Positions 828-33,376 of a stretch of 64,000 bases of DNA are shown one piece after another. A program made the translations under genes and the position numbers. The notes under the pieces were generated by a model. The model ran no database searches. It was not told the origin of the DNA and worked only from the letters and a program-made list of their open reading frames with translations. Origin of the DNA: Ensifer sp. BR816 (GTDB taxonomy: Bacteria > Pseudomonadota > Alphaproteobacteria > Rhizobiales > Rhizobiaceae); assembly GCF_000378985.1 (NCBI RefSeq), contig NZ_KB905370.1:1641830-1705829 (forward strand), in the 5' to 3' direction. Numbering within the stretch: the first letter of the stretch is position 1; the number at the start of each line of letters is the position of its first letter.

Positions 828-2009
828 TTACAGGCGCTCGACGCACATGGCGACGCCCATGCCGCCCCCGATGCAAAGGGTCGCAAGCCCCTTGGAGACG
901 CCGCGCCGCTTCATCTCGAAGAGCAGGGTATTGAGCACGCGGGCGCCGGAAGCGCCGATCGGATGGCCGATGGCGATCGCGCCGCCATTGACGTTGACGA
1001 TCGACGGATCCCAGCCGAGATCCTTGTTGACCGCGCAGGCCTGCGCCGCGAAGGCTTCGTTGGCTTCGACGAGTTCGACGTCGCCGATCGCCCAGCCGGC
1101 CCTTTCGAGCGCCTTGCGGGAAGCCGGGATCGGGCCGGTGCCCATGATCTGCGGATCGACGCCGGCGGTCGCCCAGGAGACGATGCGGGCGAGCGGCTGA
1201 ATGCCGCGCCTGGAGGCCTCCGCCTCGGTCATCAGCAGCGCCGCGGCGGCACCGTCATTGAGACCGGAGGCATTGCCGGCGGTGACCGTGCCTTCCTTGT
1301 CGAAGGCGGGTCTGAGCTTGGCGATCGAATCCAGCGTGGCGCCGTGGCGGATATATTCGTCCTGGTCGACGGTCACGTCGCCCTTACGGGTCTTGACGAC
1401 GAAGGGGACGATTTCGTCGGCGAACCGGCCGGCCTTCTGCGCGGCTTCAGCCTTGTTCTGCGAGCGGAGCGCGAATTCGTCCTGCTCCTCGCGGGTAAGC
1501 TGCCACTTGCGGGCAACGTTCTCGGCGGTAGTGCCCATGTGGTAGCCGTAGAAGGCGTCCGTCAGGCCGTCCTTGATCATCGTGTCGATCATCTTGTAGT
1601 CGCCCATCTTCACGCCGCCGCGCAAGTGCGCGCAATGCGGCGCCATCGACATCGACTCCATGCCGCCGGCAACGATGATGTTCGCATCGCCGGTGGCGAT
1701 CTGCTGCATGCCGAGGGCGACGGCGCGCAAGCCCGAGCCGCAGAGCTGGTTCATGCCCCAAGCGGTCTTTTCCTGTGGCACGCCGCCCTTGATCGCCGCC
1801 TGACGGGCCGGGTTCTGCCCTTCGCCGGCCGGCAGCACCTGGCCGAGGATCACCTCGTCGACCTCTGCCGCCTCGACTCCGGCCCGTTCGAGGACCGCCT
1901 TGATGACCGTTGCACCCAGTTCATGAGCGGCTGTGTTGCCGAAGGCGCCGTTGAAGGACCCGACTGCGGTGCGAGCGGCGCTGGCGATCACGATGGAGGG
2001 ATTGCTCAT
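828..2009 (-). CDS. phbA: acetyl-CoA acetyltransferase (beta-ketothiolase) PhbA
   Basis: Condenses two acetyl-CoA to acetoacetyl-CoA, the first step of polyhydroxybutyrate synthesis. 393 aa, the standard thiolase length. The nucleophilic cysteine is Cys90 in NQLCGSG, the C-terminal histidine is in GHPIGASG, and the second cysteine is in LCIGGGMG. The start at 2009 ([14 protein letters not shown]) is chosen over an in-frame start 48 codons upstream because an AGAGGA ribosome-binding site lies just before it and thiolases begin here. Divergent from phaR, the PHB regulator, across about 226 bp. Confidence 0.96.
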
Positions 2010-2235
2010 GGGACGTTTCCTCTTGTTTCCTTTGCCTGGAGGAGCAGACTGGCAAAGCCGGGAGCGCAAGTCAAACGCCTTGATGCTCTGCAACAAAAGC
2101 TTCACGGCGCGGCGCCGTTCATCACGTTTTGCACCTGCGTCGCCGCAACGCACAAAGAGATTGTCAGCAGCGCTCTTTTGCGGATACTCTTAAAAAATCC
2201 AATAAAGACGGGACGATGGGTAAGAGGAGACCCTG

Positions 2236-2814
2236 ATGGCGAAGAACGAAGGCCAGATCGTTATCAAGAAATACGCAAACCGGCGGCTCTACAATACCGG
2301 CACGAGCACCTATGTGACCCTCGACGATTTGGCGGTGATGGTGAAGAGGGGAGAGGACTTCGTCGTGCAGGACGCCAAGTCCGGCGAGGACATCACCCAT
2401 TCCGTGCTGACGCAGATCATCTTCGAGCAGGAGTCGAAGACGGGCAACACGCTTCTGCCGATTTCCTTCCTGCGCCAGCTGATCTCCTTCTACGGCGACC
2501 AGATGCAGATGGTCGTGCCGAGCTACCTCGAACATTCGATGCAGGCCTTCACCGACCAGCAGGCGCAGATGCGCGAGCAGATCAACAAGGCCTTCGGCGA
2601 CACGCCGCTCGGCAAGAACCTGCAGGTGCCGCTGCAGCTCGTCGAGGAGCAGGTGCGGCGCAACACCGAAATGTTCCATCAGGCGATGCAGATGTTCTCC
2701 CCCTTCATGGCCGCTCCTCCGGCCAAGGAGACCAAGAAGGCCGAAGCGAAGGACATCGACGAGCTCAAGGAACAGTTGCGCGCGCTTCAGACGAAGCTCG
2801 ACAATCTCGGCTGA
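2236..2814 (+). CDS. phaR: polyhydroxyalkanoate synthesis regulator PhaR (AniA)
   Basis: DNA-binding repressor that also binds PHB granules and adjusts carbon flow to storage polymer and exopolysaccharide. 192 aa. The N-terminal PHB/PHA accumulation regulator domain is clear (IVIKKYANRRLYNTGTSTYV at residues 8-27), followed by the TQIIFEQE and LRQLISFYGDQMQ segments and a Lys/Glu-rich C-terminal helix. A GAGGAG ribosome-binding site sits 7 bases before the ATG. It faces away from phbA, so the shared 226-bp region is the likely place for autoregulation and phbAB control. Confidence 0.95.
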   Translation: MAKNEGQIVIKKYANRRLYNTGTSTYVTLDDLAVMVKRGEDFVVQDAKSGEDITHSVLTQIIFEQESKTGNTLLPISFLRQLISFYGDQMQMVVPSYLEHSMQAFTDQQAQMREQINKAFGDTPLGKNLQVPLQLVEEQVRRNTEMFHQAMQMFSPFMAAPPAKETKKAEAKDIDELKEQLRALQTKLDNLG

Positions 2815-2963
2815 CGGGAGCCAATCTCCCACCCCCTTTGAAGCCCGTCGCCTGTGCTATCTAGAGGCGCTTTCGCGCCGCGACGACATGGCGGATGGCC
2901 GCCTCTTCGGCAGCGACCGCCCTGCCGGCGAGTCGTTCACAATGGTTCGCGTTGAACGGATTG

Positions 2964-2998
2964 AATGAATATGATAAGGAAACCTTATTAAATTCATT
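2964..2998. promoter_or_regulatory. extended dyad, likely MarR operator
   Basis: Perfect nested symmetry centred on 2981: ATAAGG (2974-2979) - AAA - CCTTAT (2983-2988), flanked by AATGAAT (2964-2970) and ATTCATT (2992-2998). It ends 14 bp before the MarR start codon. MarR proteins bind such AT-rich palindromes over their own promoters, so autorepression of the marR-MFS pair is inferred. Confidence 0.6.
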
Positions 2999-3012
2999 TG
3001 TGAACGATCCGG

Positions 3013-3486
3013 ATGCCCAGAAAACTCGAATCCGATACGATCGGATTGCTGCTCACCGATGTCTCGCGCCTGCTGCGCGGCGCCTTCGACCGCAAGGTCA
3101 ATGCGATGGCACTTGGGGTAACGCCGGGAGAAGCGCGCACGCTGATGCAGGTCGCCATGACCGAGGGCATCAAGCAGGCGGAGATCGCCACCCGCATGGG
3201 GATCGAGCCGATGACGCTGTCGGCCTATCTCGATCGCCTCGAGGCGCTCGGGCTCGTTGCGCGCGTGCCCGATCCGGCCGACCGGCGCGCCAAGAACGTC
3301 GTCATCACCGACAAGGCCGATCCGCTGCTTTCCGAACTGATGGCAGGTTTGCGCCAGATGATGAACGCCTATACCGAGGGCCTGGGCGACGAGGGACGCG
3401 AGGAGTTGCGCGGCAGCCTCCGGACCCTGCGCGACAACCTTCGCCGCCTTGATCCCTGTCTTGCCGGCAAGGAGAAGGCGGAATGA
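3013..3486 (+). CDS. MarR-family transcriptional regulator
   Basis: 157-aa winged-helix regulator. The recognition region reads KQAEIATRMGIEPMTLSAYL (about residues 56-75) and the wing contains DPADRRAKNVVIT, the conserved MarR D-x-R-R signature. It overlaps the MFS gene by 4 bases (ATGA), so the two are translationally coupled and the exporter is the probable target. Its promoter region holds a long dyad ending 14 bp upstream. The ligand cannot be read from the sequence. Confidence 0.9.
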   Translation: MPRKLESDTIGLLLTDVSRLLRGAFDRKVNAMALGVTPGEARTLMQVAMTEGIKQAEIATRMGIEPMTLSAYLDRLEALGLVARVPDPADRRAKNVVITDKADPLLSELMAGLRQMMNAYTEGLGDEGREELRGSLRTLRDNLRRLDPCLAGKEKAE

Positions 3487-4721
3487 CGCTCAGGATGAGC
3501 GAGCGGCGCACGAGTATCATCGGCGCCTTCCTGGTGGCGCTCGGGCCCGTCTCGATGGCGCTCTATACGCCCGCCATGCCGGAACTCGTCCGCGCCTTTG
3601 CCTCCAGCGAGGCGGCGATCAAGATGACGCTGTCGCTCTATTTCGGCGGCTTCGCCTTCGCCCAGCTCGTTTCCGGCACGCTCTCCGATGTCATCGGCCG
3701 TCGCCCGGCGACGTTGATCTTCATGGCGATCTATCTCGCCGGCAGCTTGATGGCCGCCTTTGCCCCCTCAGTCGCCGTGCTGCTCGCCGGACGGCTCGTG
3801 CAGGGGATTGGGGCCTCCGTCGGCATGACGGTTGCCCGCGCCATCGTGCGCGATCAGTTCACCGGCACGAGCGCCGCCCGGATCATGAACATGATCGGCA
3901 TGATGCTGGCGCTCGGCCCGGCGGTCTCACCGACACTCGGCGGCATCGCATTGGGAATTTTCGGCTGGCAGTCGATCTTCTTCCTGATGGTCGGCTTCGC
4001 CCTGATGGCCTGCTTCACCGTGCAGTTCTTCATGGTCGAAACAGCGACGCCGGACCGCAGCAAGGCCCATTTGCGGCCGATCCTCGCCGCCTATCGCGAG
4101 CTGCTGACGGACAGCCGCTTCGTGGCCTCGACGCTGGTGATCGCCGGCGCTGTCGGCGCGCTCTATGCCTGGGCGACCATGCTGCCCTTCGTGCTGATCA
4201 GCGAGGTCGGCCTGACACCGACAGAGTTCGGTGTCGGCATGCTGATGCAGTCCGGCCTGTTCTTTTCGGGCACGGTCACCGTGCGGCTCTTGATGCGGCG
4301 GTTCACGCCGCAGGCGCTTGTACCCCCCGGACTTTTCTTCATCGGCATGGCGAGCATCGTTCTCGCCTTCACAATGCATGCGCTGGATCCGACCTTCCTG
4401 TCGGTCATGGCGCCGATCGGCGTCTATGCTTTCGGCATCGCCTTCGTGATGCCCTATATGATGACCGCGGCGATGGCGCCCTTCCCGCATATCGCCGGCA
4501 CGGCGTCGGCGATGATGGGCTTCATTCAGATGGGTTCCGGCCTGCTCGGCGGCGCGCTCGCCGCTCTCGTCGGTGCACCGGCACTGGCGCTCGGCACGAT
4601 CATCCCGGGCTTCGGCTTTATCTCCATAGCAAGCTATGTCTGGTATCGCAGGACGGTTCGGCTGAGGCCGCTCGTCGCGCCGGCATCAGCTGAAGCGCCG
4701 TTGCGCGAAGCAGCGGAATAG
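3483..4721 (+). CDS. MFS transporter, Bcr/CflA-type drug exporter
   Basis: 412-aa inner-membrane transporter with about 12 hydrophobic segments. The N-terminus has the Bcr/CflA pattern: YTPAMPELVRAF in the first loop and the MFS loop 2-3 motif GTLSDVIGRRP near residue 65. The LVQGIGASVGMTVARAIVRD stretch (near residue 105-125) is typical of 12-TMS drug:proton antiporters. The start overlaps the MarR stop (ATGA), which suggests substrate-inducible efflux. The actual substrate (drug, plant compound or sulfonamide-like) is unknown. Confidence 0.88.
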   Translation: MTLRMSERRTSIIGAFLVALGPVSMALYTPAMPELVRAFASSEAAIKMTLSLYFGGFAFAQLVSGTLSDVIGRRPATLIFMAIYLAGSLMAAFAPSVAVLLAGRLVQGIGASVGMTVARAIVRDQFTGTSAARIMNMIGMMLALGPAVSPTLGGIALGIFGWQSIFFLMVGFALMACFTVQFFMVETATPDRSKAHLRPILAAYRELLTDSRFVASTLVIAGAVGALYAWATMLPFVLISEVGLTPTEFGVGMLMQSGLFFSGTVTVRLLMRRFTPQALVPPGLFFIGMASIVLAFTMHALDPTFLSVMAPIGVYAFGIAFVMPYMMTAAMAPFPHIAGTASAMMGFIQMGSGLLGGALAALVGAPALALGTIIPGFGFISIASYVWYRRTVRLRPLVAPASAEAPLREAAE

Positions 4722-27362: not shown

Positions 27363-30300
27363 TCACGCCCCAAACACCACCAGCAGATCCTTCGCATCGA
27401 TCTGGTCGCCGGCCCGGACCAGCACCTCGGCGATCGTGCCGTCCTTCTCGGCGTGCAGCGCCGTCTCCATCTTCATCGCCTCGATGGAGAGCAGCACGTC
27501 GCCGGCCTTGACCGGCTGGCCGGGATGAACGGCGACGGTCGAGATGACGCCCGGCATCGGCGCGCCGAGATGGGCGGCGTTGCCGGCTTCGGCCTTGCGG
27601 CGGATGGCGGCGGAAGCGCCGCGGTTGCGGTCCGGCACCTTGATCGGCCGCGGCTGGCCGTTCAGCTCGAAGAACACCTTGACCATGCCCTTCTCGTCGA
27701 TCTCGCCCTGCGTCTGGTTGAGGATGACGAGCGTCTTGCCCTTCTCGATGTCGGCGAACAGCTCCTCGCCCGGCGCCATGCCGTAGAAATAGGCGGGCGT
27801 CGGCAGCACGGAGACCGGGCCATAGGTCTCGGCGGCCAGCGCATAGTCGGTGAACACCTTCGGATACATCAGGTAGGAGGCGAACTCGAAGTCGTCGACC
27901 TTGCGGCCGAGCTTCTCCTCAATGGTTTTCCGCTCCTGGTCGAGATCGGCGGGCGGCAGCAGCGAGCCCGGCACGGCCGTATAGGCCGATTCGCCCTTCA
28001 GCGCCTTCTTCTGCAAGGCCGCCGGCCAGCCGCCCGGGGGCTGGCCGAGATCGCCCTTCAGCATCTGCACGACCGAATCCGGGAAGGCGATGTCCTTGGC
28101 CGGGTTTTCGACGTCGGCAACCGTCAGGTCCTGGGAGACCATCATCAGCGCCATGTCGCCGACCACCTTCGACGACGGCGTCACCTTGACGATGTCGCCG
28201 AACATCTGGTTGGCGTCGGCATAGGCCTGCGCCACCTCGTGCCAGCGGGTCTCGAGGCCGAGCGAGCGCGCCTGTTCCTTGAGGTTGGTGAACTGGCCGC
28301 CCGGCATTTCGTGCAGGTAGACTTCGGAGGCCGGCCCCTTGAGGTCGCTCTCGAAGGCCGCATACTGGTGGCGCACCGCTTCCCAGTAGAAGGAGATGCG
28401 GCGGATCCATTCCGGGTTCAGGCCGGGGTCGCGCTCGGAACCGGACAGCGCCTCGACGATCGAGCCGAGGCAGGGCTGCGAGGTGTTGCCGGAGAGCGAG
28501 TCCATCGCCGCATCGACGATATCGGCGCCGGATTCGACCGCGGCCAGCACCGTCGCCGCGGCAATGCCCGACGTGTCGTGCGTGTGGAAATGGATCGGCA
28601 GGTCGGTCGCGTCCTTCAGTGCCTTGAACAGCACCCGCGCCGCGGCCGGCTTCAGGAGCCCCGCCATGTCCTTGACGGCGATGATATGGGCGCCGGCCTT
28701 CTCCAGTTCGGCGGCGAGCGCGGTATAGTATTTGAGGTCGTATTTCGGCCGGGCGGCATTCAGGATGTCGCCGGTATAGCAGATCGCCGCCTCGCAGATG
28801 CGGTTCTCCTCGGCGACCGCGTCCATCGACACCCGCATGTTGTCGACCCAGTTCAGGCAGTCGAAGACGCGGAAGACGTCGATGCCGCCCTTGGCCGCCT
28901 GGCGGACGAAGTATTTGACGACATTGTCCGGATAGTTCTTGTAGCCGACGCCGTTGGCGCCGCGCAGCAGCATCTGCAAGAGCAGGTTCGGCGCGCCCTC
29001 GCGCACCATCGCCAGCCGCTCCCACGGGTCCTCTGTCAGGAAGCGCATCGACACGTCGAAGGTGGCGCCGCCCCAGCATTCGAGCGAAAACAAATTGGGC
29101 AGCGCCCGCGCATAGGTGCCGGCGATCCGGGCGATGTCATAGGTGCGCATGCGGGTGGCGAGCAGCGACTGATGGCCGTCGCGCATGGTCGTATCGGTGA
29201 TCAGCACCTGCGGCTGCGCCTTGACCCATTCGGCGAATTTCTTCGGCCCGAGCTCGTCGAGTTTCTGCTTGGTGCCGGGCTTGGCCTCGCCATTGATGAA
29301 CGGTACGACCGGGGCGGCGATGTCGTCGTTGGGCTTCGGCCGGCCCTTCGCCTCCGGATGGCCGTTGACGGTGACGTCGGCGAGATAGGTCAAGAGCTTG
29401 GTGGCGCGGTCCTGGCGCTTGACCTGCTGGAACAGCTCCGGCGTCGTGTCGATGAAGCGGGTCGTGTAGCTGTTGTCCTTGAACTTCGGGTGGCCGATGA
29501 TCGCCTCGAGGAAGGTCAGGTTGGTCGCGACGCCGCGGATGCGGAATTCTCTGAGCGCCCGGTTCATCCGCGTTATCGCCTCCTGCGGGTTCGGCGCCCA
29601 GGCGGTCACCTTTTCCAGAAGCGGATCGTAGTAGCGGGTGATCACCGCGCCGGAATAGGCGGTGCCGCCGTCCAGCCGGATGCCGAAGCCGGTGGCGCCG
29701 CGATAGGCGGTGATGCGGCCATAGTCCGGAATGAAGTTCTGCTCCGGGTCTTCGGTGGTGATGCGGCATTGCAGCGCATGCCCGTTGAGGCGGATGTCTT
29801 CCTGCTTCGGCACGCCCGATTCCGGCGTGCCGATGGCAAAGCCGTCGAGGATGTGGATCTGCGCCTTGACGATGTCGATGCCGGTGACCACTTCGGTCAC
29901 CGTGTGCTCGACCTGGATGCGCGGATTGACCTCGATGAAGTAGAATTTGCCGGTGTCGGCATCCATCAGATACTCGACCGTGCCGGCGCCGATATAGTTG
30001 GTCGCCTCGGCGATCTTCAGCGAATAGGCGGCGAGCTCCTGGCGCTGTGCGTCGCTGAGATAGGGCGCCGGGGCGCGCTCGACGACCTTCTGGTTGCGCC
30101 GCTGGATCGAGCAGTCGCGCTCGAACAGATGTACGACATTGCCGTGCGTGTCGCCAAGGATCTGGCTTTCGACGTGGCGGGCCCGCTCGACGAGCTTTTC
30201 CAGATAGACCTCGTCCTTGCCGAAGGCGGCCTTCGCCTCGCGCTTCGCCTCGGTCACCTCGCGGATCAGGTCCTTCGGGTCGCGGATCGCCCGCATGCCG

Positions 30301-30821
30301 CGGCCGCCGCCGCCCCAGGAGGCCTTCAGCATCACCGGATAGCCGATCGCGTCGGCGAGCCGATGGATTTCCGCCTCATCGTCCGGCAACGGATCGGTGG
30401 CCGGCACGACCGGCACGCCGACGGAAATGGCGAGGTTGCGCGCGGCGACCTTGTTGCCGAGCTGACGCATGGTCTGCGGCCGGGGACCGATGAAGGTGAT
30501 GCCGGCGGCATCGCAGGCATCGACGAATTCCGGGCTTTCCGACAGCAGCCCGTAGCCCGGGTGGATTGCGTCGGCGCCGGACAGCTTGGCGACGCGGATC
30601 ACCTCGTCGATCGCAAGGTAGCTTTCGATCGGCCCGAGATCGCGGGAAAGGTGCGGGCCGCGGCCGATCTGATAGCTCTCGTCGGCCTTGAAGCGATGCA
30701 GCGCCAGCTTGTCCTCCTCAGCCCATATCGCGACCGTTTTAAGTCCCAGCTCATTGGCCGCGCGGAAGACGCGGATGGCGATTTCGGAACGGTTGGCAAC
30801 AAGGATCTTCGAGATGGACAA
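27363..30821 (-). CDS. pyc: pyruvate carboxylase
   Basis: Biotin enzyme that carboxylates pyruvate to oxaloacetate. 1152 aa, full length for the single-chain form. The order is biotin carboxylase (residues 1-460, ATP-grasp with WGGGGRGMR and the EVNPRIQVEHTVTE catalytic block), carboxyltransferase (about 540-810, DTTMRDGHQSLLATR with metal-binding site HFHTHDTSG), and a C-terminal biotinyl domain with Lys1117 in EAMKMET. It is monocistronic, 114 bp downstream of the expR remnant on the same strand. Confidence 0.97.
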   Translation of the reverse strand: MSISKILVANRSEIAIRVFRAANELGLKTVAIWAEEDKLALHRFKADESYQIGRGPHLSRDLGPIESYLAIDEVIRVAKLSGADAIHPGYGLLSESPEFVDACDAAGITFIGPRPQTMRQLGNKVAARNLAISVGVPVVPATDPLPDDEAEIHRLADAIGYPVMLKASWGGGGRGMRAIRDPKDLIREVTEAKREAKAAFGKDEVYLEKLVERARHVESQILGDTHGNVVHLFERDCSIQRRNQKVVERAPAPYLSDAQRQELAAYSLKIAEATNYIGAGTVEYLMDADTGKFYFIEVNPRIQVEHTVTEVVTGIDIVKAQIHILDGFAIGTPESGVPKQEDIRLNGHALQCRITTEDPEQNFIPDYGRITAYRGATGFGIRLDGGTAYSGAVITRYYDPLLEKVTAWAPNPQEAITRMNRALREFRIRGVATNLTFLEAIIGHPKFKDNSYTTRFIDTTPELFQQVKRQDRATKLLTYLADVTVNGHPEAKGRPKPNDDIAAPVVPFINGEAKPGTKQKLDELGPKKFAEWVKAQPQVLITDTTMRDGHQSLLATRMRTYDIARIAGTYARALPNLFSLECWGGATFDVSMRFLTEDPWERLAMVREGAPNLLLQMLLRGANGVGYKNYPDNVVKYFVRQAAKGGIDVFRVFDCLNWVDNMRVSMDAVAEENRICEAAICYTGDILNAARPKYDLKYYTALAAELEKAGAHIIAVKDMAGLLKPAAARVLFKALKDATDLPIHFHTHDTSGIAAATVLAAVESGADIVDAAMDSLSGNTSQPCLGSIVEALSGSERDPGLNPEWIRRISFYWEAVRHQYAAFESDLKGPASEVYLHEMPGGQFTNLKEQARSLGLETRWHEVAQAYADANQMFGDIVKVTPSSKVVGDMALMMVSQDLTVADVENPAKDIAFPDSVVQMLKGDLGQPPGGWPAALQKKALKGESAYTAVPGSLLPPADLDQERKTIEEKLGRKVDDFEFASYLMYPKVFTDYALAAETYGPVSVLPTPAYFYGMAPGEELFADIEKGKTLVILNQTQGEIDEKGMVKVFFELNGQPRPIKVPDRNRGASAAIRRKAEAGNAAHLGAPMPGVISTVAVHPGQPVKAGDVLLSIEAMKMETALHAEKDGTIAEVLVRAGDQIDAKDLLVVFGA

Positions 30822-30935: not shown

Positions 30936-31250
30936 TCAGGAGATCAGCCCCAGGCGGAAGGCGACGAGCGTGTCGCGCCAGCGGAAGCCGCGCTGGGCGT
31001 GGCCGAGATAGCGGATGGTCGGGTCGATGACGACATATTTCTTGCGGATGTAGATCTGCGGCCAGCCCTCGGGCCAACGCCCGGCGAGCAACAGCCTCAA
31101 TGGGTTCTCGTGCGGTTTGGGCTGGCGCACCACGCCGTAGAAATCGAAGCCGCAGCGATCGAGCAGCCGTTCGAACTCGGGCAGGATCTCCTCGCGCGTC
31201 TTCATCTCTTCCAGAAGCGCCAGAAACTGTACGAGCAACGTTATATTCAT
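30936..31250 (-). pseudogene. expR: internally deleted ExpR-type LuxR regulator
   Basis: 104 codons. Residues 1-95 are the N-terminal half of the acyl-homoserine-lactone-binding domain of the ExpR type (MNITLLVQFLALLEEMKTRE, DRCGFDFYGVVRQPKPHENP, RGFRWRDTL). It then jumps to VAFRLGLIS, which matches the last residues of LuxR-family C-termini. The rest of the ligand domain and the whole GerE helix-turn-helix are missing, so it cannot bind DNA. The position between pyc and ndvA is that of expR in Sinorhizobium meliloti. A short GCCTTCCGC-like repeat at both deletion ends would explain the event; the frame is kept, so a small protein may still be made. Confidence 0.8.
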
Positions 31251-31618: not shown

Positions 31619-33376
31619 GTGTCTTTATTCCAGGTGTATGCAAGAGCGCTTCAGTATCTTGCTGTCCACAAGTTTCGTGTCGGGGCGATCGTCATCGCCA
31701 ATATCGTCCTGGCTGTGATCACCATTGCCGAGCCGATCCTCTTCGGCCGCATCATCGACGCGATCTCGTCGCAGAAGGAAGTCGCGCCGATGCTGCTCAT
31801 GTGGGCCGGCTTCGGTGTCTTCAACACCCTCGCCTTCGTGCTCGTTTCCCGCGAGGCCGACCGTCTTGCGCATGGTCGTCGCGCAACGCTGCTGACCGAG
31901 GCCTTCGGCCGGATCGTCTCCATGCCGCTTTCCTGGCATAGCCACCGCGGCACCTCCAATGCGCTGCACACGCTGCTGCGCGCCTGCGAGACCCTGTTCG
32001 GCCTCTGGCTCGAATTCATGCGGCAGCATCTCGCGACCGCCGTGGCGCTCGTCCTGCTGGTGCCGACCGCCTTCGTCATGGATTTCCGCCTGTCGATGGT
32101 CCTCGTCGTGCTCGGCGCCGCCTATGTGGTGATCAGCAAGGTCGTGATGAACCGTACGAAGGACGGCCAGGCCTCGGTCGAGAACCACTATCACACGGTC
32201 TTCTCGCACGTCTCCGACTCGATCAGCAACGTTTCGGTGGTTCACAGCTACAACCGCATCGAAGCGGAAACGCGCGAACTGAAGAAGTTCGCCGAACGGC
32301 TTCTCTCGGCGCAGTACCCGGTGCTCGACTGGTGGGCCTTGGCGAGCGCGCTCAACCGCATCGCCTCGACCATCTCGATGATGACGATCCTCGTTATCGG
32401 CACGATCCTGGTGCAGCGCGGCGAGCTCGGCGTCGGCGAGGTCATCGCGTTCATCGGCTTCGCCAATCTGCTGATCGGCCGTCTCGACCAGATGAAAGCC
32501 TTCGCGACACAGATCTTCGAGGCACGCGCCAAGCTTCAGGACTTCTACCAGCTCGAAGATTCGGTCCGCGAACGCGATGAGCCGGCCGGCGCCGGGGAGC
32601 TCACCGGCGTCGTGGGTGAAGTCGAGTTCCGCGACGTCTCCTTCGACTTCGCCAACTCCGCCCAGGGCGTGCGCAATGTGTCCTTTACGGCGAAGGCCGG
32701 CCAGACGATCGCCATCGTCGGCCCGACCGGCGCCGGCAAGACGACGCTCGTCAACCTGCTGCAGCGTGTCCACGAGCCGAAACACGGCCAGATCCTGGTC
32801 GACGGCGTCGATATCTCGACGGTGACGCGCAAGTCGCTGCGCCGGTCGATCGCCACCGTCTTCCAGGACGCCGGCCTGATGAACCGCTCGATCGGCGACA
32901 ACATCCGGCTCGGCCGCGAGGACGCCTCGCTCGAAGAGGTCATGGCCGCTGCCGAAGCGGCCGCCGCAAGCGACTTCATCGAGGGCCGCCTCAACGGCTA
33001 CGACACGCTCGTCGGCGAACGCGGCAACCGGCTCTCGGGCGGCGAACGCCAGCGGATCGCGATTGCCCGCGCCATCCTCAAGAACGCGCCGATCCTGGTG
33101 CTCGACGAGGCGACCAGCGCGCTCGACGTCGAGACCGAGGCACGTGTCAAGGATGCAATCGATGCGCTGCGCAAGGACCGCACCACCTTCATCATCGCCC
33201 ACCGGCTGTCGACGGTGCGCGAGGCGGACCTGGTGATCTTCATGGATCACGGCCGGATCGTCGAGATGGGTGGCTTCAACGAGCTCAGCCACAGCAACGG
33301 CCGCTTCGCCGCACTGCTGCGCGCCAGCGGGATCCTGACGGACGAGGATGTCCGCAAGAGCCTCACGGCGGCGTGA
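31619..33376 (+). CDS. ndvA: beta-(1,2)-glucan export ABC transporter NdvA
   Basis: Exports cyclic beta-1,2-glucan from the cytoplasm; needed for osmoadaptation and nodule invasion in rhizobia. 585 aa, a fused permease-ATPase half transporter. Residues 1-300 hold six membrane helices (PILFGRIIDAISSQKE, VSMPLSWHSHRGTSNALHTL); the ATPase has Walker A GPTGAGKTT, signature LSGGERQRIA and Walker B ILVLDEATSALD. Start is GTG at 31619 (VSLFQVYARALQYL) with AAGGGG about 8 bases upstream; the frame runs 15 codons further but the known family starts here. Followed by a strong terminator. Confidence 0.96.
   Translation: MSLFQVYARALQYLAVHKFRVGAIVIANIVLAVITIAEPILFGRIIDAISSQKEVAPMLLMWAGFGVFNTLAFVLVSREADRLAHGRRATLLTEAFGRIVSMPLSWHSHRGTSNALHTLLRACETLFGLWLEFMRQHLATAVALVLLVPTAFVMDFRLSMVLVVLGAAYVVISKVVMNRTKDGQASVENHYHTVFSHVSDSISNVSVVHSYNRIEAETRELKKFAERLLSAQYPVLDWWALASALNRIASTISMMTILVIGTILVQRGELGVGEVIAFIGFANLLIGRLDQMKAFATQIFEARAKLQDFYQLEDSVRERDEPAGAGELTGVVGEVEFRDVSFDFANSAQGVRNVSFTAKAGQTIAIVGPTGAGKTTLVNLLQRVHEPKHGQILVDGVDISTVTRKSLRRSIATVFQDAGLMNRSIGDNIRLGREDASLEEVMAAAEAAAASDFIEGRLNGYDTLVGERGNRLSGGERQRIAIARAILKNAPILVLDEATSALDVETEARVKDAIDALRKDRTTFIIAHRLSTVREADLVIFMDHGRIVEMGGFNELSHSNGRFAALLRASGILTDEDVRKSLTAA

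Follow-up and report, generated by a model that had tools for sequence, protein, structure and literature searches.

An in-frame 426-bp deletion reduces expR of Ensifer sp. BR816 to a 104-codon remnant

The expR gene of Ensifer sp. BR816, at positions 30936-31250 (minus strand) of the window, has lost 142 codons from its interior and stays in frame; by the window we mean the whole 64,000-nucleotide stretch of DNA analysed here. We regard the locus, with high confidence, as a loss-of-function allele that arose by one 426-bp deletion, most likely by slippage or illegitimate recombination between GCCTTCCGC-like copies; a null allele made by recent slippage is the likeliest reading. The source genome (6.95 Mb, three contigs) has a completeness of 99.99%, and the features of the locus are these:

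30936..31250, minus strand: expR remnant, 104 codons plus stop (246 codons in intact relatives)
30954..31250, minus strand: retained codons 1-99, the N-terminal part (autoinducer-binding domain), placed by protein and DNA identity to relatives
30954..30962, minus strand: deletion junction GCCTTCCGC (encodes AFR), a short direct repeat, placed by base-by-base comparison with relatives
30963-30964, minus strand: two bases upstream of the junction that can also be assigned to the repeat, which then reads TCGCCTTCCGC
30936..30953, minus strand: retained LGLIS plus stop, ExpR codons 242-246, matching the ends of relatives
27363..30821, minus strand: pyruvate-carboxylase-type gene (pyc), downstream neighbour, assigned from its domains
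about 31622..33376, plus strand: ABC exporter gene of the ndvA type, upstream and divergent neighbour, assigned from its domains, start codon approximate

The 104-codon frame runs from an ATG at 31250 to a TGA ending at 30936. A preliminary description had placed it at the expected expR locus between pyc and ndvA, names that we take to be those of the two neighbours, and both the neighbours' domains (pyruvate carboxylase downstream, ABC exporter upstream) and the collinearity of the flanks with relatives agree. It had also estimated that about 140 residues, with the whole DNA-binding domain, were missing, and proposed an alignment with intact expR genes of related strains. That alignment mapped both deletion ends and the repeat: it pairs codons 1-99 and the final five codons with those of relatives one base at a time, the second block shifted by exactly 426 bp, or 142 codons, against the first, and the DNA-binding domain lies in the lost part. 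The fusion itself, described as WRDTL followed directly by AFRLGLIS, is real, but its exact text is WRDTLVAFR-LGLIS, with V96 kept and the repeat-encoded AFR belonging to both sides.

The retained part is expR by descent. Over residues 1-99 the protein does not differ from that of three relatives (100% identity), the corresponding DNA is 94.6–95.3% identical to seven close relatives, and across 30 of the 33 genus genomes (our own included) protein identity over this part is 95–100%; the last five codons, LGLIS, match the ends of relatives. A search with the fragment found matches in 31 of the 33 genus genomes, over residues 1-104 in our own, over 1-99 in 29 relatives and in two pieces in one more (G022); five of those 29 relatives gave an extra weak match, which by its 27–39% identity belongs to other LuxR-type genes. 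When the 29 were translated, 26 proved to begin at the same start, to run for 246 codons and to close with AFRLGLIS. With a full-length query, our genome was alone, among the 31 with the gene, in having its match confined to residues 1-99. No near copy of the missing 142 residues was found elsewhere in our genome, where the best of nine matches reached 33% identity; this rules out that the part was relocated, as it was in S. fredii HH103.

What was lost defines the allele. Remnant residues 19-97 match Autoind_bind (PF03472; E 5.8e-16, 58.8 bits) over profile positions 2-80 of 149, so the autoinducer-binding domain is incomplete, and a profile search of the 104-codon frame found no GerE/HTH DNA-binding domain. 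The one intact relative scanned is the nearest on a tree of the flanks (locus L013); its Autoind_bind match spans 19-164 and its GerE match 185-239. Judged from this loss of domains, ExpR function is very probably gone in the source strain.

The junction lies within a short direct repeat. GCCTTCCGC is present once in the remnant, whereas intact alleles have two copies: of 28 genus relatives, 23 repeat 8 bp or more of codons 96-99 without mismatch 426 bp further on, with GCCTTCCGC-type exact matches of 8–11 bp (our own genome, G032 and G022 were not counted; the stop-broken G008 and G015 were). The other five have 2–7 bp of the repeat. The nearest relative is among them with only 5 bp, and the exact ancestral repeat is therefore drawn from the other relatives. 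Outside the genus, a repeat of at least 8 bp was found at 2 of 33 loci, with offsets fitted per gene (6 of the 33 are one codon longer or shorter); these loci come from genomes named Rhizobium, Pararhizobium, Agrobacterium, Ciceribacter or ‘Rhizobiales bacterium’ and have 49–87% identity. Within the genus, the presence of the repeat at expR codons 96-99 and 238-241 may be due to codon use alone.

Deletion between short direct repeats, as first suggested in the preliminary description, is thus borne out by the position of the junction and by the paired copies in relatives, and loss by way of the repeat is well supported. The ancestral expR would have had two GCCTTCCGC-like copies 426 bp apart, at codons 97-99 and 239-241. 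Replication slippage or illegitimate recombination between them is the most probable event, a single 426-bp deletion that would have taken out codons 100-241 (or an equally long stretch that includes the alternative repeat copy) and left as its product a 104-residue in-frame fragment. Each copy is read as Ala-Phe-Arg, in one and the same frame, which accounts for the preserved reading frame. The pair is not singular within the gene. It ranks first or joint first in length among the gene's direct repeats in four of seven close relatives (L012, L010, L019 and L018), but not in L013, L038 or L011; no within-gene pair in L011 reaches 9 bp. Another pair as long or longer is present in three of the seven (L012, L038 and L013), and the idea that this pair is the only possible hotspot was not upheld.

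The deletion is probably recent. By parsimony on the flank tree, codons 1-99 underwent four changes on our strain's own branch, all synonymous and none altering an amino acid, although these codons offer 2.5–3.3 non-synonymous opportunities per synonymous one (P about 0.005–0.007 if the whole branch were unconstrained). Either the deletion came late on this branch or the fragment has been under constraint, and four changes do not suffice to tell which. A young event would also suit an origin in laboratory culture of one isolate, in which case the allele would not be typical of the species. This is compatible with the explanation preferred here, and known cases include laboratory strains, with an insertion element in Rm1021 and Rm2011 according to the portions consulted of the cited papers (PMC5977203, PMC4468178); against it, nothing in the sequence tells culture from nature, and a single strain of the species was compared. 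We consider a culture origin possible but rather doubtful.

The preliminary description allowed for a small, possibly dominant-negative protein, and here the evidence points the other way. An AlphaFold model of the full-length protein of the nearest relative (25 sequences, mean pLDDT 82.9) has strands at 36-42, 54-56, 122-129 and 132-140. Residues 148-169 form a long helix in it, which would serve dimerisation, as is usual in the LuxR-type family. The fragment keeps the first two strands and loses the two later ones and the helix. It models poorly (19 sequences, mean pLDDT 59.8, residues 66-104 below 50), although part of the difference may come from its shallower alignment. The nearest solved relatives by sequence are RhlR, SdiA, the quorum-sensing control repressor and LasR.

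Could the fragment nonetheless act by dimerising with a LuxR-type protein or by binding AHL, and so damp quorum sensing in the way of TrlR and CerN? Its fusion is in frame, its 99 retained residues are unchanged on the branch and shared in full with three relatives, and the 100 bp upstream are 95% identical to the nearest relative. It also keeps counterparts of five of the six residues (W57, Y61, D70, P71, W85 and G113) listed as highly conserved in LuxR regulators in the part consulted of the source (PMC11655674): W63, Y67, D76, P77 and W91, matched by spacing and conservation and invariant in the alignments, with no counterpart of G113. TrlR, from an Agrobacterium Ti plasmid, and CerN, from Cereibacter sphaeroides, are likewise LuxR-type proteins without a DNA-binding domain, but in the available portions of their descriptions (PMC3907764, PMC11655674) they lack that part only, CerN being described with an autoinducer-binding domain, whereas the remnant has lost about half of that domain, with the strands and helix. 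Those proteins, moreover, act on a full-length partner in the same cell (TraR and CerM, respectively), and our genome contains no second, full-length ExpR to inhibit. The intact frame and unchanged residues are explained equally well by a recent event, so a dominant-negative role is not supported, and a functional small protein of any of these kinds seems very unlikely. Still more improbable is the wider proposition that expR in this genus carries a built-in, in-frame, deletion-prone repeat pair that fired here and left a constrained small protein tuning quorum sensing.

Had an error of assembly or sequencing merged two short repeats, the junction would lie exactly in a direct repeat, as is seen, and the locus was judged from the assembly; yet about 10 bp of repeat falls far below the length at which assemblies collapse, the genome is in only three nearly complete contigs and the flanks follow those of relatives, which makes an artefact exceedingly improbable. 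That the locus is an ordinary short gene common to relatives, its AFRLGLIS ending a coincidence, can practically be dismissed: neither a normally ended frame nor a shared short gene was seen, 26 of the 31 genus genomes with the gene having 246 codons with the same start and end, and 60 of 61 loci in a collection of named genomes (overlapping the genus set, our own genome left out) reading 245–247 codons, the exception being Ensifer sp. USDA 6670.

The remaining genus genomes add further lesions, so that of the 31 with expR, 26 are intact, one has the present deletion and four are broken otherwise. There are stops at codon 63 in G008 (L038) and at codon 5 in G015 (L024), where a later start at codon 16 is possible, a frameshift with an 11-bp shortfall near codon 58 in G022 (Ensifer sp. 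USDA 6670; L092 2001-2730) and a one-base length difference near codon 227 that replaces the end of ExpR in G032 (L020); the single-base lesions among these could be sequencing errors. Neither the fragment nor the full-length query matched expR in G019, which is 99% complete. There the pyc flank is kept to about the expR end and is followed by an rlmN-type gene (L108, G019:C71, about 1900-3500), which suggests a rearrangement breakpoint at expR. G030 also had no expR match, but is 70% complete and hence uninformative.

Beyond the genus, 78 of 297 family genomes matched at E 1e-50 or better, 5 from this genus and 73 from other genera. In all 73 the match extends to residue 245 or 246 and is free of internal stops; three begin only at residue 22-28. 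Broken expR genes thus make up 5 of 31 in this genus and 0 of 73 in the others (Fisher P 0.0018), a lead only, as the genomes are related, the test was made after seeing the data and the thresholds differ (1e-30 against 1e-50), the stricter of which would hide short remnants in divergent genera. Rough as it is, the comparison gives a hint that expR can often be dispensed with, or is selected against, in this genus.

The signalling side of the circuit seems to persist. Our genome has three LuxI-type synthases and eight Autoind_bind matches, including the remnant; the seven others are all distant relatives. On the main contig, a LuxR-type and a LuxI-type gene lie side by side, both intact (L007, 1411-2166 and about 2324-2965). 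In the consulted part of PMC5977203, sinR is upstream of and adjacent to sinI, and we read our pair as SinR/SinI from its chromosomal place and this pattern, although the family models give no such name. The cell would then keep making AHL through the SinR/SinI-like pair. ExpR is understood as an orphan LuxR-type receptor for long-chain acyl-homoserine lactones, and with it the ExpR-dependent control of exopolysaccharide, motility and sinI feedback would be lost. The strain is likely to have a signal without its main receptor.

On both plasmid-size contigs, G000:C2 and C3 (L002, L004, L005, L100 and L101), there are quorum-sensing genes of the tra kind, LuxR-type as well as LuxI-type. Megablast found no plasmid record that spans 80% of the piece searched from either: the C2 piece matched 11 records, at 80–90% identity over a part of it, and the C3 piece 61, five of them at 95–99% and two at 90–95%; records very close to our own genome may be absent from this search. 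The main contig, G000:C1, has 6,127,971 bp, far above the 3.5–4.3 Mb of expR-bearing contigs in other near-closed genus genomes; along with that of G008 (6.48 Mb), it may have arisen by the joining of the chromosome and a large second replicon.

Loss of expR has been published for related strains, and ours is a new allele of this known kind of loss. In the portions consulted of the cited papers, expR of the widely used S. meliloti strain Rm1021 is inactivated by an insertion element (allele expR102::ISRm2011-1; PMC5977203, PMC3418255, PMC4468178), as it is in Rm2011 (PMC5977203, PMC4468178), whereas the present lesion is an in-frame deletion that removes the DNA-binding part. S. meliloti GR4 is called ExpR-deficient in the available text of PMC4381460. 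The consulted part of PMC7022240 gives expR as truncated in S. fredii HH103 and USDA257, which also have the sin system, and not in the others of 13 S. fredii strains compared. In HH103, according to that source, about 137 kb separate the two halves of expR, and the DNA-binding one is preserved as an ORF, this C-terminal part being proposed to act without AHL; in our strain that half is lost, so that this proposal cannot apply. The independent loss suspected in the preliminary description is upheld, in that the lesion differs from the published ones compared and occurs in 1 of the 31 genus genomes with the gene. The deletion was not described in the literature consulted, which was covered in part and says little about what is in print.

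The finding adds an expR loss with a lesion of its own to those of Rm1021/Rm2011, GR4, HH103 and USDA257. As the C-terminal part is missing, the strain should be a plain ExpR loss. It stands in contrast to HH103 in that the DNA-binding end is gone while a SinR/SinI-like pair stays, and comparing such strains could separate the loss of ExpR from signal-independent activity of the ExpR C-terminal part.
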